Source of the DNA: Gammaproteobacteria bacterium
Lineage (GTDB): Bacteria > Pseudomonadota > Gammaproteobacteria > PS1 > Pseudothioglobaceae
DNA: 37,313 nt
Assembly: GCA_008080915.1 (NCBI GenBank)
Contig: VMDI01000025.1
Coordinates: 1 to 37,313 of the forward strand
Direction: 5' to 3'
Part shown: positions 17,627 to 37,313 of the stretch, piece after piece
Position numbering within the stretch: the stretch's first letter is position 1
Layout of the letters: each line of letters opens with the position of its first letter
Translations under genes and position numbers: made by a program
The notes under the pieces: generated by a model
What the model saw: the letters and a program-made list of their open reading frames with translations, nothing else
The model's database searches: none
What the model was told of the DNA's origin: nothing

Positions 17627-18718
17627 GTGAAATTTTATTTAGTAGGAGGTTATGTCAGGGACTCTCTTCTAGGAGTTGCTGATGAATCTACAGAAAAAGA
17701 TTATGTAGTTACAGGTGCTACAGAGCAAGAAATGCTAGATAAAAATTTTGTCAAGGTTGGAAAAGACTTTCCTGTTTTTCTTCACCCTGATACCAAAGCA
17801 GAATATGCGCTTGCCAGATTCGAAAAAAAAGTAGGTTCTGGATACAAAGGTTTTGAATTTGATGCTTCAAATAGTATCACTCTGGAAGAAGATCTTTATA
17901 GAAGAGATTTAACAATCAATGCGATGGCGATTGATCCTGATGATGATTCCATCATCGATCCATTTAATGGTCAAGATGATTTGAATAACGGCCTATTAAG
18001 ACATGTTTCTGAGGCATTTAAAGAAGATCCGGTAAGAGTATTAAGAGTCGCCAGATTTGCTGCAAGATTTAAAAAATATGGATTTAAGGTCTCCCATAAA
18101 ACCAATCAATTTATGCGTGAGATGGTTTCTAATGATGAGGTTTCCTCTTTAACTCCTGAGAGAGTATTTGTGGAATTAGAAAAGTCATTGTCATATGAGA
18201 CACCTTCGGCTTTTTTTAAAGTTCTTTTGGGTTGTGGAGCTTATCATGTTATTTTTTCTGACCTTCAAGTGCCTGACAAAGAAAACCATGAAAACATCTT
18301 TACTTATTTAGATCATCTAGAAAATTTTGAGCCTGAAGAGAAATTTGCATTCTGGCTTTCAAATCAAGACACGAAAGATGTCGAAAGATTTTGTGTTCAA
18401 TATAAAACACCAAAAGCATATTCTGATTTAGCTTTATTAACCTCTAAATGGAGAACTTTTGTTCAAAGCATAGTAGACAAATCAGACGAGGAGGTCTTGG
18501 AATTTTTCTCTCGAACTGATGCAATCAGAAGATCGGAAAGATTTCACTCCTTAGTCAAAATCTATTCTAAGATGGATATAGATATGAAGCTTTTTGAAAG
18601 TTTATTAGAACAAATTAAGCAAATTGATATTAAATCTCTTAATCAAGAAGATATTGCCAACTCTTTGAGATTAAAAAAACTAGAGATCATTCAATCATTT
18701 CTCAATTCTACAAAGTAG
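17627..18718 (+). CDS. cca: Multifunctional/CCA tRNA nucleotidyltransferase (GTG start)
   Basis: VGGYVRDSLLG...EKDYVVTGAT; RRDLTINAMAID; DPVRVLRVARFAARF. Confidence 0.93.
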   Translation: MKFYLVGGYVRDSLLGVADESTEKDYVVTGATEQEMLDKNFVKVGKDFPVFLHPDTKAEYALARFEKKVGSGYKGFEFDASNSITLEEDLYRRDLTINAMAIDPDDDSIIDPFNGQDDLNNGLLRHVSEAFKEDPVRVLRVARFAARFKKYGFKVSHKTNQFMREMVSNDEVSSLTPERVFVELEKSLSYETPSAFFKVLLGCGAYHVIFSDLQVPDKENHENIFTYLDHLENFEPEEKFAFWLSNQDTKDVERFCVQYKTPKAYSDLALLTSKWRTFVQSIVDKSDEEVLEFFSRTDAIRRSERFHSLVKIYSKMDIDMKLFESLLEQIKQIDIKSLNQEDIANSLRLKKLEIIQSFLNSTK

Positions 18719-21160
18719 GCTAAATTCACAGTACTGACAAACAGTTACATCTTTAGGTTTTACTAATGCATAGCCTTTTTTAAAATCATCAAAACCAGAA
18801 ACTATTCTCTCATCCCAAATCTCACTTTGATTATTCCAATCTTCGCATCTTGTTTGCTTGGTTTTGTTAGGAAAATTTAACTCATCGTTCACACTTAGGC
18901 CAAGACTTTTGATTGATTCACTGGTCAGGTGGATTTGCAAAATTCCATCAGCATCTTCATATTGAGAGTAGATTGGTAGTTGAGGCTCTTTTAAATAATC
19001 ACCACACCAAGGATTGTTTGCTGCTTTTCCAGATTTGTAATCGATGACTACTTTTTGACTTCCGATTTTATCAATGCGATCTATTTGGCCTTTAAATTGG
19101 ATACCAGAGATTGAAAAATCAAATTCTTTTTCAGTATTAAGGACGACAAAACTATCTCTATCTTTTTCTAAACTGATAAATTCCCAAAGTATCTGAAATA
19201 ACCTATCCTTTTCAATTGAATAAAAGTTGTTGGAGCTATCAGGAAAAGATGAAGAAATAGATTGATGAATAATTTTAGACAAGTCTTCGTCATTTATATT
19301 TGCCAGTTGTTCACTTGAATGAATGGTTTCAAAAATTTTATGCAAGGTTTTGTGCATCAAATTACCCCTTTCAAAAGCGTCAATGCCGACAACCGGATCA
19401 TCAAAAAATTCAATTTGAAACCTTCTTGCAAAACCCTTAAAGGGGCAAGCAATTTGATCTCTAATAGTATTAATAGCACTTTTTAGAGAGTTTTCTTGGT
19501 ATGGAGATGCCTCGAAGTCATCTATTAGCTCAAAGCTAGTATCAGATTGTGCATTCATCGATGTTGATGGAACAGATACAAAGTCTAGAAGAGGGGATGG
19601 AGATTTAGTCTCATCAAACTGGTTAATTGAAAAACTCCCATTGATATCTTCTGAGATATTCATCATTGATTGTATGTTGCTATTTGCCTCCTGCTGGACC
19701 AAATCATATGAACTGCCTTGAACATGATTTCTTATACAAATTCTTTGTGAAAGGAATTTGGGTTTCTTGATCTTTCCTGGAATGACTTCATTGGTTAAGT
19801 TCATTATCCAAGCATGATCAAAACTAAGACCTTTTGCTTCCAGAAGACCTAAAACCTGAATATTGGATTTAGGACCTTGAGGCTGAAATAAAGTTTCATC
19901 AAATAAATTTTTTAATTCAAGGAAAAAGGTATTTGCACTAATCTTTGGGATTAACTGTTGATGAGTATTTACGTATTTGCTATCCTCAATGTATTTATTT
20001 AGAGCTTGATACTCGGAACTTGATAATGATTGATCTCGAATAGAGAAAAAAACATTAATTAATTTTGCAAAATGATCGAGCCAAAACTCATGACTTTCCT
20101 CGCGAGGAAAAGATAAATCTTGTAATTTGGAGAGTAACTCTTCTAAGTGTCTTTTATCAGTAGACTTATCAAGAATGATCTTTGATGACAAAAAATCTCT
20201 TTTCAGTTTCTTTATTTCAAATGCAAGTTCTGCTGACTCTTTTGTCAGATTTTTATTTGTAGATAATGACATCAAGCGAAAGAATTTATCGAGGGTATTT
20301 TTGGATATTCTCGTTTGATTAAATTCAATGAAAAATTTATAAAAGTTCAGTAAATTTGAGATGAGAGGATAAGAGGAGAATTTTTTTCCAAAGGATATGT
20401 TGAATTTCTTATTGCCAATTTCCACTAGTCTACTGGAGAAGGTTTTATCAAACTGGTTCAGAATCAGTGAATAGTGTTGATCAAGGGTGGGACAAATTAC
20501 CCCAATAGTTTCATTTGGATTTGATTCAGAAACTTCTTTAGCCCAATTACTGATGTAACCAATTTCATCATGGATGTTCTTAAATTCTAGAAAATTGCCT
20601 TTGGTCTCACTTTTATGACTAGCCATCAATTGATGATTAAATAAATTAAGAATTTTGAGCTGGACAGGGTAGAGATTATCGAACCCTAGGACGGCAATAT
20701 TCTTTTTAAGATCGATAGGGTCTGATAATAATAGCTTCTGGAAGTCATAAATGTCCAAGAAATTAAGTTGCTTTTTAATGTCTTGATATTCTTTGTGCCA
20801 TCGAATAAATTCAGAATCTATTTCATAATTTGATGATTCGATATTGATTAAATAGTTTTCACAAATTATTAAGTTATTAACGATTTCTTTAATGAGTTTT
20901 TTGTTCTTAGAAATATTTGAACCAAGTATTTGCTGAAAACATTTTGCTATCAAATTGTCTTTAATTAACTGATGCTCTTTGGAGGCATTATGAAGTTCGA
21001 ATAACTCTTTGATGAAACCTTTCCAAGTGTTAACCTTTGGAAGCTCTGAAACACCATTTAAGTTCTGCCAACTATCTTTAAAGGCAAGAATTTGTCGGTT
21101 ATTGGCAACGATTACATAATCATTAGTGGATATTTTGCTTGAATCAAAATCAATTCTCAT
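18695..21160 (-). CDS. AddB-like DNA repair protein with C-terminal PD-(D/E)XK nuclease and probable Fe-S cluster
   Basis: Nuclease motifs FERGNLMHKTLHKIFE, FKGQIDRID, VIDYKSGK; cysteines IACPF and CQYCEFSLLC (C-x2-C-x5-C); ~820 aa. Confidence 0.8.
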   Translation of the reverse strand: MRIDFDSSKISTNDYVIVANNRQILAFKDSWQNLNGVSELPKVNTWKGFIKELFELHNASKEHQLIKDNLIAKCFQQILGSNISKNKKLIKEIVNNLIICENYLINIESSNYEIDSEFIRWHKEYQDIKKQLNFLDIYDFQKLLLSDPIDLKKNIAVLGFDNLYPVQLKILNLFNHQLMASHKSETKGNFLEFKNIHDEIGYISNWAKEVSESNPNETIGVICPTLDQHYSLILNQFDKTFSSRLVEIGNKKFNISFGKKFSSYPLISNLLNFYKFFIEFNQTRISKNTLDKFFRLMSLSTNKNLTKESAELAFEIKKLKRDFLSSKIILDKSTDKRHLEELLSKLQDLSFPREESHEFWLDHFAKLINVFFSIRDQSLSSSEYQALNKYIEDSKYVNTHQQLIPKISANTFFLELKNLFDETLFQPQGPKSNIQVLGLLEAKGLSFDHAWIMNLTNEVIPGKIKKPKFLSQRICIRNHVQGSSYDLVQQEANSNIQSMMNISEDINGSFSINQFDETKSPSPLLDFVSVPSTSMNAQSDTSFELIDDFEASPYQENSLKSAINTIRDQIACPFKGFARRFQIEFFDDPVVGIDAFERGNLMHKTLHKIFETIHSSEQLANINDEDLSKIIHQSISSSFPDSSNNFYSIEKDRLFQILWEFISLEKDRDSFVVLNTEKEFDFSISGIQFKGQIDRIDKIGSQKVVIDYKSGKAANNPWCGDYLKEPQLPIYSQYEDADGILQIHLTSESIKSLGLSVNDELNFPNKTKQTRCEDWNNQSEIWDERIVSGFDDFKKGYALVKPKDVTVCQYCEFSLLCRIEK

Positions 21161-33894: not shown

Positions 33895-34287
33895 TTAGAC
33901 TCTTAGACCGTTAAGTACAATATTAGTTAAGCTAACGACACCTACCACCTCTCCATGGTCAATCACTGGACATCTTGAGAGTCCGAAACGAGTTAAAAGA
34001 GTAGAACAGTTCTTGACACTCATTGACGAGGTTACTGAAATTATTGGTTTGTTCATAATTTCATAGACATTCACTCGATCGCAAGATTTATTTTCTGCAA
34101 TAACCTTTGAGGCAATATCCGCAATTAGGACCACCCCATATTCATCTTCTGGATGACCCTTATCAACGATTAACATTTTAGTTCTTTTATGCTGCATGGT
34201 CTCTAGTGCTTGGGTAATGGTTAATTTACTATCAATAATGTCTACTTCTTTCCACATGACATCTGCAACGGTTTTATCCTTAATCAT
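33895..34287 (-). CDS. CBS-domain-pair protein
   Basis: Two CBS-like halves (VADVMWKEVDIIDSKLTITQALETMQHKRTKMLIVD; IMNKPIISVTSSMSVKNCSTLLTRFGLSRCPVIDHGEVVGVVSLTNI). Confidence 0.88.
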   Translation of the reverse strand: MIKDKTVADVMWKEVDIIDSKLTITQALETMQHKRTKMLIVDKGHPEDEYGVVLIADIASKVIAENKSCDRVNVYEIMNKPIISVTSSMSVKNCSTLLTRFGLSRCPVIDHGEVVGVVSLTNIVLNGLRV

Positions 34288-34634
34288 AATTTCTCCTCAA
34301 CAGTATTTTCTAGAGCTTCAATTTGATGTTTTATACCAATAGCATCCTCAACATCGATCTGAAATGCAATCCCCTCCTGATTTTGATCTTCAAAACTTCC
34401 AACCTTAGAAATTTCTTCAAGAATATCTCTAGCGAGATGTTGCTCAACTAGAAGAAGTAAAACATCTTTGGGTGATTCAAGGTTGAGACCAAGAAAACTT
34501 TTATGGTGTTCAAGACCCTCACCTCTTGCTTGCGATATAACCGTAGAACCGGTAGCACCCTTGAGTCTTGAAGCTTCAAGTATGCTTTCAGTTTGATTAC
34601 TATCAACAAATGCAATGATTAATTTGAAATGCAT
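34284..34634 (-). CDS. P-II-like (GlnB-fold) signalling protein
   Basis: Size and pattern (LIIAFVDSNQTESILEASRLKGATGSTVISQARGEG...) resemble the P-II superfamily; start overlaps CBS gene. Confidence 0.7.
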   Translation of the reverse strand: MHFKLIIAFVDSNQTESILEASRLKGATGSTVISQARGEGLEHHKSFLGLNLESPKDVLLLLVEQHLARDILEEISKVGSFEDQNQEGIAFQIDVEDAIGIKHQIEALENTVEEKL

Positions 34635-34643
34635 AGTTTCTCC

Positions 34644-35387
34644 TTACTTACTTATTTTATTGATTATTTTTACAATTTGTATATATCCCATGACAGCAAT
34701 GATCGGAAACAAAGACGCGAAAGCAATGAGACCAAAACCATCAATTAAAATATCTCTCCCATCGATTGAATGAGATAGGCCAATACCAAGAGCTGCTATT
34801 AAGGGAACTGTGACCGTCGATGTAGTAACACCTCCCGAATCAAATGCTAGAGGAATGATCTCTTTTGGTGATAGATAAACCAGAATAATAATAATAAGGT
34901 AGCCTGTTACAAAGAAATATAGAATTGGCAAACCATAAATTATTCTAATCACACCAACTAATAAACCCAAGCCTACCCCAATTGCTACCGCAATTCTTAG
35001 TGGCCAACTTTTAATAAAGCCTCCAGATGACTCCTCTGCTTTAATAGAAACAGCCAGTAATGAAGGTTCTGCTAATGTGGTTGATATGCCTATTAGAATC
35101 GCAAATAAATAAATCCAAAAATAATCTGACCAAGAGAATATATGCGAAGAGATGAATTCTTTACTGGTTAATTCATATGCCATTAACTTACCAATTGGAA
35201 AGAGTGTCTGTTCTAAACCAATGACAAAAAGGGTTAGCCCTATCCACACTGAGACTATACCGATAAAGATTTTTTTATTATCAGGAAAGGATTTTTTTAG
35301 AATGGCAAACTGGAAAAAGTAAATAATTCCAACGACTGGTGCAATGCTTATAAGCATGTCATGAGCAATTTTTATAATTTCACTCAT
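34644..35387 (-). CDS. DUF1538-like integral membrane protein (copy 2)
   Basis: Multiple TM segments; shared signature LAEPSLLAVS and AFDSGGVTTSTVTVPLIAALGIGLSHSIDGRDILIDGFGLIAFAS. Confidence 0.8.
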   Translation of the reverse strand: MSEIIKIAHDMLISIAPVVGIIYFFQFAILKKSFPDNKKIFIGIVSVWIGLTLFVIGLEQTLFPIGKLMAYELTSKEFISSHIFSWSDYFWIYLFAILIGISTTLAEPSLLAVSIKAEESSGGFIKSWPLRIAVAIGVGLGLLVGVIRIIYGLPILYFFVTGYLIIIILVYLSPKEIIPLAFDSGGVTTSTVTVPLIAALGIGLSHSIDGRDILIDGFGLIAFASLFPIIAVMGYIQIVKIINKISK

Positions 35388-36118
35388 AAAAACATTCCAA
35401 AGATAAGAACTCCAATGATTGGCACTACAGAGGCAATTGCTATTAGACCGAACCCATCAACAAGAGGATTCCTTCCCCTAATAGAGCTGGCAAGACCGAC
35501 ACCAATTGCAACAATAAGAGGAACGGTGATTGCAGATGTAGTAACCCCTCCTGAGTCATAGGCGATTCCGATAATATACTCAGGGGCGAGAGGTGTGAGC
35601 AATATAACTAAAAGATAAAGGATAATGATGATTGAATGAGTAGACCAATTCTTAAGAATTTTTAATACACCCAATATGACCGAAATTCCGACGCAAAAGG
35701 CAATAATTGATCTAAACATATTCTGAAAACTCTTCCTTGCCTCATCAGTTGACTCAATGATTTGAGACTCCTGTATGGCTTTAGCAACTTCTCCGGAAAT
35801 AACAATTAAATCGGGTTCTGCGATAGTCACTCCAAATCCTAATGCAAAACCAAAAATTAATAACCAGGATAAGGATGCCCTCTCAACAAAGTTATAAGCT
35901 AGGTTTTCTCCTGCCGGAAAAAAACCAATCTTAAGACCAAACACGAAAAAGGTTAGGCCTAGAATAATCAGTAATAGGCCTTCGAGAATGAGTAAAAGAT
36001 CATCCAAAGGCTTTTGAATAACAAATATCTGAAAAAAACCGACGACTATAATGATGGGTAATAGGTCTTTAATGCTCTCAATAATACTTTGAAAAATTTT
36101 TCTACCAGTTCGGGTCAT
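35384..36118 (-). CDS. DUF1538-like integral membrane protein (copy 1)
   Basis: Multiple TM segments; IAEPDLIVIS and AYDSGGVTTSAITVPLIVAIGVGLASSIRGRNPLVDGFGLIAIAS; 4-nt overlap with next gene. Confidence 0.8.
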   Translation of the reverse strand: MTRTGRKIFQSIIESIKDLLPIIIVVGFFQIFVIQKPLDDLLLILEGLLLIILGLTFFVFGLKIGFFPAGENLAYNFVERASLSWLLIFGFALGFGVTIAEPDLIVISGEVAKAIQESQIIESTDEARKSFQNMFRSIIAFCVGISVILGVLKILKNWSTHSIIIILYLLVILLTPLAPEYIIGIAYDSGGVTTSAITVPLIVAIGVGLASSIRGRNPLVDGFGLIAIASVVPIIGVLIFGMFL

Positions 36119-36174: not shown

Positions 36175-37313
36175 ATGAAGTCTATTGTTCTTATAAATGG
36201 AAAAAAACAATCTCGTCTTTTGGTGATGAATCGAAACACACAATTTGGCGATGGAGTCTTTGAGACAATTCTTTATAAAGATCGTTTTTTGTATTTTTGG
36301 GATGATCACTTTAAAAGATTGGAAAAAGGAAGGAAGTCTTTAGAAATTAGACCAATTAAAGAATCTGTCTTATTAAAAGATATTAAAAAAGCAACCGCTC
36401 AATTAGATAAAGGCAGTTATGCAATAAAAATCATTCTATCAAGAGGAAAGACTGAGAGAGGTTATGGTTACAGTCAGGACATCAAACCTGATAGAGTAAT
36501 CATTATTTCAAAAATTAGTTCAGCAACAAAAGATAAATTTGATCTATCTGTTTGTCAATCAGGATATTTCAGTAATCCTCAATTATCTAAAATTAAGCAT
36601 TGCAATCGATTGCAAGAAGTTCTTGCTAGAAGATCCTTAGAATCTGATGAGTGTTTAATGCTGGATGAAAATGGAGAGGTCATTTCGACATCACAGGGAA
36701 ATATTTTTCTTATCAAAAATAATATTCTATACACTCCAATCATTGAAAAATCAGGTATCGAAGGCACAACCAGGGCTCAGATAATTTCATGTGCTCATGA
36801 GCTAAATATCAAGGTATCTATCAAAAATATAATACCTGATGAGGTGTATAAGTCTGATGAAATTTTCATGACAAACAGTATTGTTGGAATGAAAAAGTTT
36901 AACTCTTTTAAAGATAAATCTTTTACTAATAGCCCAGTGTTTGATCAATTAGAGCTAAAGTATTTGAGTCTTGGAGAAGAAAAAAAAATATTCATAGCCA
37001 AAAGTTTGGTACCCAAGTTTAAGGTTTATGGTTTTTTTGTCGGAATTTTTTTGCTAATTTTTGCATGGTTCTATTATGCAAAAGATTTGAATGTCTACTC
37101 TAATCAAATTTATCGCATAGATAACGGCACCTCTTTGAGTCAATTAATCAAGGATCTAAATCAGAAGTCCATTACTCGATCAAATGTTATGTCTTACCTA
37201 GTATCCACTTTATATCGTAATCAGAGTGTCAAGGCAGGCTATTATGAAGTACTAGAGAGTGATAATATTTTTGATCTATTCTCAAAGTTCTACCAAGGTA
37301 AAGTTGCTACAGT
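36175..37313 (+). CDS. Aminodeoxychorismate lyase (PabC) fused to the N-terminal part of endolytic transglycosylase MltG/YceG; open at window end
   Basis: Manual translation from ATG 36175 has no stop to 37313. PabC part: NTQFGDGVFETIL, KIKHCNRLQEVLARRSL, TSQGNIFLIKNNILYTP. Then TM YGFFVGIFLLIFAWFYYA and MltG-like IYRIDNGTSLSQLIKDLNQKSI...VKAGYYEVLESDNIFDLFSKFYQGKVAT. Confidence 0.88.
   Translation, partial: MKSIVLINGKKQSRLLVMNRNTQFGDGVFETILYKDRFLYFWDDHFKRLEKGRKSLEIRPIKESVLLKDIKKATAQLDKGSYAIKIILSRGKTERGYGYSQDIKPDRVIIISKISSATKDKFDLSVCQSGYFSNPQLSKIKHCNRLQEVLARRSLESDECLMLDENGEVISTSQGNIFLIKNNILYTPIIEKSGIEGTTRAQIISCAHELNIKVSIKNIIPDEVYKSDEIFMTNSIVGMKKFNSFKDKSFTNSPVFDQLELKYLSLGEEKKIFIAKSLVPKFKVYGFFVGIFLLIFAWFYYAKDLNVYSNQIYRIDNGTSLSQLIKDLNQKSITRSNVMSYLVSTLYRNQSVKAGYYEVLESDNIFDLFSKFYQGKVAT

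Follow-up and report, generated by a model that had tools for sequence, protein, structure and literature searches.

An apparently old fusion of pabC and mltG in the SUP05 family of Gammaproteobacteria

Introduction

The aminodeoxychorismate lyase PabC of E. coli is a homodimer. PabC is also known as a part of larger proteins, since fusions of PabC to PabB have been described and Corynebacterium diphtheriae has a triple PabA-PabB-PabC fusion (PMC1971073, PMC4921024). For the peptidoglycan transglycosylase MltG, additional cytoplasmic parts are known: the MltG of E. faecalis has a cytoplasmic N-terminal segment that is regulatory, phosphorylated and predicted to be disordered (PMC12369325), and the MltG of S. 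pneumoniae carries an extra cytoplasmic domain (PMC8135044). A search of the openly accessible literature found no published PabC-MltG fusion.

The window analysed here is a complete contig of 37,313 bases (C5) from a gammaproteobacterial assembly that totals 984,056 bases. At its 3' end a first-pass annotation, made from the letters alone, had noticed what seemed to be a translational fusion of PabC and MltG. Here we explore this locus, its relatives and its history, and consider it very likely that it represents a genuine bifunctional pabC-mltG gene, derived from an overlapping gene pair and encoding one inner-membrane protein of ~69 kDa.

Methods

The source MAG is 86% complete and consists of 90 contigs. 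NCBI names its family Pseudothioglobaceae; we take Thioglobaceae to be the GTDB-style name of the same family. Its named records show a family of sulfur-oxidising ocean bacteria, SUP05/Candidatus Thioglobus, and of thiotrophic symbionts that live in vesicomyid clams or Bathymodiolus mussels. Searches covered 83 family genomes; in 78 of them the pabC locus was scorable. Two phylogenetic trees were built, one from PabC alone and one from PabC, MltG and Tmk combined. The domain borders used throughout (262/263 and 283/284) are approximate.

Results

The frame that starts with the ATG at 36175 runs through 379 codons to the contig end without a stop, as had been noted before. Contig C74 begins with exactly the 55 bases with which C5 ends, an identity that is typical of an assembly-graph overlap, and this 55-mer has no other occurrence in the assembly. 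Extension of the frame beyond the contig end, which the first-pass annotation had proposed, succeeded: on C74 the same frame continues to a stop and includes the catalytic part of YceG, with a PF02618 score of 237.3 bits for the C74 part and 23.3 bits for the C5 part (cut-off 32.4). The joined frame encodes 597 residues with a computed mass of 68.8 kDa, near the ~70 kDa suggested earlier. It is followed on C74, after 5 bases, by tmk and then by a holB-like gene, in the same order as in relatives, and is preceded on its 5' side by a divergent DUF1538 pair. The features are listed in Table 1.

Table 1. Features at the 3' end of the window
Feature	Position	Strand	Basis or remark
Fused pabC-mltG ORF, 5' part (379/597 codons)	36175..37313	+	Rest on C74, TAA at C74:708-710
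PabC (4-amino-4-deoxychorismate lyase) domain, residues 1-262	36175..36960	+	TIGR03461, PF01063, 1ET0 match
Codon of K141, PLP lysine (counterpart of E. coli PabC K140)	36595..36597	+	1ET0 alignment; invariant in 37/37 fused proteins
Cytoplasmic linker, residues 263-283	36961..37023	+	LKPKK-like Lys-rich motif in many relatives
A9 run in linker, most frameshift-prone point of the fusion	36980..36988	+	
Transmembrane helix, residues 284-302, VYGFFVGIFLLIFAWFYYA	37024..37080	+	Mean Kyte-Doolittle 1.95
N-terminal periplasmic (LysM-like) part of MltG, residues 303-379	37081..37311	+	Catalytic YceG part on C74
Exact 55-bp overlap with the start of C74; joins C5 and C74	37259..37313	none	Contig comparison

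Two other parts of the window are recorded here. At 33895-36118, on the minus strand and divergent from pabC-mltG, lie genes for a PII-like protein (PF00543), a protein with two CBS domains and the tandem pair of DUF1538 membrane proteins; judged by position and N-terminal similarity, the DUF1538 pair adjoins the fused gene in many relatives. The group looks like a PII/CBS-regulated membrane system. At 18695-21160, also on the minus strand, an AddB/RecB-like nuclease is encoded, an 821-residue protein with UvrD_C-like and PD-(D/E)XK nuclease matches.

The PabC domain matches TIGR03461, the equivalog model of proteobacterial PabC, with 202.1 bits, above the cut-off of 176.85, and PF01063 with 149.6 bits. 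Its score against the broader equivalog NF004761 is 205.5 bits, below the cut-off of 260 of that model. The solved E. coli PabC (1ET0) aligns with the same residues at E=1.4e-26, and the lysine of the stretch KHCNRLQEVL, from which a PabC-like PLP enzyme had been proposed, is indeed residue 141 and falls on K140 of 1ET0. The product of the fused gene is the only class-IV aminotransferase protein with strong PabC similarity found in the genome, and its N-terminal half is predicted to be a lyase that makes p-aminobenzoate.

The hydrophobic segment behind the linker agrees with the single transmembrane helix of the first-pass annotation. AlphaFold2, applied to a full-length relative with 19 sequences, gave a mean pLDDT of 69.7, with low values for the catalytic domain, and confidently predicted both the homologous helix (282-301) and the alpha/beta domain that follows it. 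MltG N-terminal sequence had also been recognised correctly, as the stretch 284-377 matches TIGR00247 with 28 bits, a score below cut-off because C5 holds only a fragment; in relatives the PabC and YceG Pfam domains both score above cut-off within single full-length ORFs. The MltG part aligns with the YceG structures 2R1F, 8YQ7 and 4IIW, and its architecture, a single helix and then a LysM-like domain, is that of MltG. The putative catalytic residue Glu481 lies in the motif ASLIEMES, aligned with ASIIEKET of 2R1F, and an equivalent motif is present in all 37 fused proteins. By motif position Glu481 appears to be the counterpart of E218 of E. coli MltG; the E218Q variant of MltG is inactive (PMC8135044). 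The fused gene is the only MltG gene of the genome and its C-terminal half is predicted to cut nascent peptidoglycan in the periplasm. The earlier argument on topology holds: an N-in/C-out orientation, as in ordinary MltG, would put PabC on the cytoplasmic side and MltG on the periplasmic side. Chain A of 2R1F, the deposited YceG structure of E. coli, still bears the label 'Predicted aminodeoxychorismate lyase', outdated naming in which MltG is mistaken for PabC.

The same genome has two PabB-family (chorismate-binding) matches, both below the curated cut-off of TIGR00553 (pabB or trpE), and two PBP transpeptidase genes. Because these matches are present the folate and cell-wall pathways plausibly both operate, and both fused functions are probably used.

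The search of relatives for the same architecture returned an unbroken fused ORF in 37 of the 78 scorable family genomes, the window genome being counted across its two contigs. One further genome (G102) has a fused gene with a frameshift inside MltG, 29 have separate genes, eight have lost or decayed mltG and three are broken. The fused ORFs span 538-606 residues without internal stop, the 538-residue one, of G018, being C-terminally shortened, and each of the 11 genera contains a fused member. Fused ORFs of 596-609 residues are also encoded in independent records that are named SUP05 or Candidatus Thioglobus. One frame through both domains, common to relatives, bears out the translational fusion. 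The first-pass annotation had named related genomes with two separate genes as a refuting observation. Such genomes do exist (the 29 above), yet 37 are fused, and because the fused state lies at the base of the family tree the majority of separate forms are most reasonably regarded as derived.

Outside the family the two genes are separate. None of 365 non-family genomes in a class-wide draw of 369 contained a PabC-MltG fusion and every full-span match had at least one stop. Likewise none was found in a phylum draw of 399 genomes, in which the matches with E<=1e-60 all came from the same class, other classes being weakly tested. Among the best 80 named relatives, the non-family loci with both genes all had them separate, and pabC and mltG were adjacent in all complete non-family loci. 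Eight loci of the class-wide draw whose MltG frames were exceptionally long were read, and these frames proved to be GC-rich open frames rather than PabC fusions. Judged from these sequences the fusion is real and old, and among the genomes searched it is known only in the SUP05 family.

Since the A9 run lies in the linker of a contig from an incomplete MAG, a base missed there by sequencing or assembly could have falsely joined two genes. A change of +1 or -1 in this run would end PabC at 282 or 273 residues and leave the window genome's MltG with TTG as its only start, without ATG or ribosome-binding site. Moreover, the fused ORF is unbroken in 37 genomes, 28 of which have no linker A run of 8 or more, and five of which (G004, G021, G022, G085 and G088) are single-contig genomes, so assembly of reads at contig ends is not the cause. 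We therefore rejected an artefact as extremely unlikely. A missed stop or frameshift at 36950-37060, the region where a check of the reads had been advised, is unlikely because the fused state is common to relatives and lies at the base of the family tree.

A genuine fused ORF might nevertheless give two products, either by internal initiation or by slippage on A runs that frees a PabC of 273-286 residues. Linker A runs of 8 or more occur in nine of the 37 fused genes, a one-base slip on them in one direction would end PabC before or just inside the helix, and their density (9 in 5.1 kb of linker vs 9 in 61 kb) gives an apparent enrichment. Synonymous-codon shuffles, however, account for the runs via the lysine codons of this Lys-rich sequence, with 6.7 expected against 9 observed (P=0.19; for runs of 9 or more P=0.058), and slippage was rejected. 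An internal start for MltG was rejected as well: only 5/37 fused genes have any ATG between PabC and the helix, and in 0/37 is a start codon there accompanied by a Shine-Dalgarno-like site. Two products from the fused ORF are thus very unlikely.

Pooled over 15 pairs of fused relatives, dN/dS was 0.09 for PabC and 0.10 for MltG, compared with ~0.18 for the linker and 0.24 for the helix. The linker is under purifying selection; its sequence is the least constrained non-membrane part of the fused protein.

The family formed one clade in both trees (SH-aLRT 100). In the tree of PabC, MltG and Tmk a trio of fused g3 genomes was sister to 23 split g3 genomes, with supports of 99 and 92, and g1, g9, g6, g10 and g8, all fused, took basal or near-basal places in the rest of the tree; support is weak for part of the deep branches, and G000 sits on a long branch. 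At least five state changes are required on the tree, and parsimony by itself does not separate gain from loss. Since all outgroups have separate genes, the simplest reading, and the one that the tree favours, is a single basal fusion in the family with later splits in g3, g5 (one or two times) and g2.

The separate genes of g3 overlap by ~10 bases in a different frame, hence an indel of one or two bases interconverts the two states. In g5, mltG is a gene of its own in four genomes, of which G014 and G027 have an ATGA overlap. Two others (G089 and G092, loci L161 and L164, 90% and 86% complete) show pabC, short remnants and tmk, with no mltG found in the genome; this loss is separate from that in g2. 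The g2 records, Vesicomyosocius and Ruthturnera, comprise one fused, two separate and three broken loci and six with mltG lost. Several g2 PabC proteins with decayed or broken mltG still carry a C-terminal tail that consists of the linker and some or all of the transmembrane segment, ending for example in YLRFIFIFVAIFLLF in G029 and in AIFLLFWIILSKQII in G011. Such membrane tails are the footprint of a formerly fused gene and support loss in g2.

Some details of these loci were also recorded. At the g2 loci L027, L030, L031, L032, L162 and L165 mltG is decayed or deleted and PabC is kept, and these genomes each have one or two PBP transpeptidase matches (broken in G080). In G082 (L189) PabC and MltG share one frame with three in-frame TAA codons just after the helix, at about codons 306-310, which appears to be an early stage of splitting or decay.

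Several independent fusions within the family would be compatible with the ease by which a single small indel interconverts the g3 states and with the minimum of five changes, gain and loss being indistinguishable there. Against this, fused members occupy all basal positions and occur in every genus, linker positions and lengths are homologous, and the relic tails of g2 indicate that there the fused state came first. We regard several fusions as unlikely; a single ancestral fusion, with re-splitting in the PS1-like clade and in mussel symbionts and mltG decay in clam symbionts, is favoured.

Discussion

The history that we propose starts from an adjacent pabC-mltG pair, which in other Gammaproteobacteria usually overlaps. 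At the base of the Thioglobaceae/SUP05 the pabC stop would have been lost, or its frame changed by a small indel, giving a single inner-membrane protein of ~69 kDa. At the cytoplasmic face of the membrane its N-terminal PabC would supply p-aminobenzoate for folate, and in the periplasm its C-terminal MltG would cut nascent peptidoglycan, the two products being held at one-to-one stoichiometry. The fusion may have been tolerated because the N-terminus of MltG was already cytoplasmic. Proteolysis after translation could part the two halves, and this has been counted against the proposal. Later the gene would have been split, or its mltG half would have decayed, in several host-restricted lineages.

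Does the fusion itself serve a function? It could have been selected because PabC makes MltG dimerise, or controls it, at the membrane, or because the fusion couples folate or nucleotide supply to cell-wall synthesis. Its retention in all 11 genera, the low dN/dS and the likeness to enterococcal MltG, whose cytoplasmic N-terminal segment is phosphorylated and regulatory, and to S. pneumoniae MltG with its extra cytoplasmic domain agree with this, but at least two or three re-splits kept both genes (g3, g5, g2), MltG was lost where PabC stays (g2, G089, G092), and the linker evolves under the weakest constraint outside the membrane. Re-splits and MltG loss imply that the linkage is dispensable, and selection for it seems improbable. 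A narrower form, in which free-living SUP05 has a functional link that was given up upon host restriction or streamlining, with PabC dimerisation at the inner membrane face pairing or positioning MltG or with PabC reporting folate or pABA status to wall growth, we hold to be decidedly improbable. The fusion is most likely a tolerated consequence of operon overlap and not of a pathway link, given its repeated reversal, in which PabC was retained and MltG at times disappeared.

Two enzymes that have no common substrate and work on opposite sides of a membrane thus appear fused across a whole, ecologically important family. Operon adjacency and a compatible topology may be enough to create and keep such a fusion, which need not mean a shared pathway; this matters for function prediction by gene fusion. 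Annotation can be misled, YceG proteins being already labelled aminodeoxychorismate lyase, as 2R1F is by its molecule name. In symbionts, the re-splits together with relic membrane tails form a natural series of fission and decay.

The closest described arrangement is the pabC-mltG(yceG)-tmk-holB cluster of Gammaproteobacteria, with the same genes in the same order, since tmk and holB lie downstream here too; in that cluster pabC and mltG are distinct genes, and every full-span non-family match contains one stop or more, whereas here they are one ORF. The PabB-PabC and PabA-PabB-PabC fusions likewise unite PabC with another enzyme in one chain, but those partners belong to the same pathway and have aminodeoxychorismate as common intermediate, while MltG acts on the opposite side of the membrane and has no common substrate with PabC. 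The MltG proteins of Firmicutes (E. faecalis, S. pneumoniae) likewise have an extra cytoplasmic region before the transmembrane helix; in E. faecalis this is a phosphorylated segment predicted to be disordered, in contrast to its counterpart in SUP05, a complete folded PLP enzyme.
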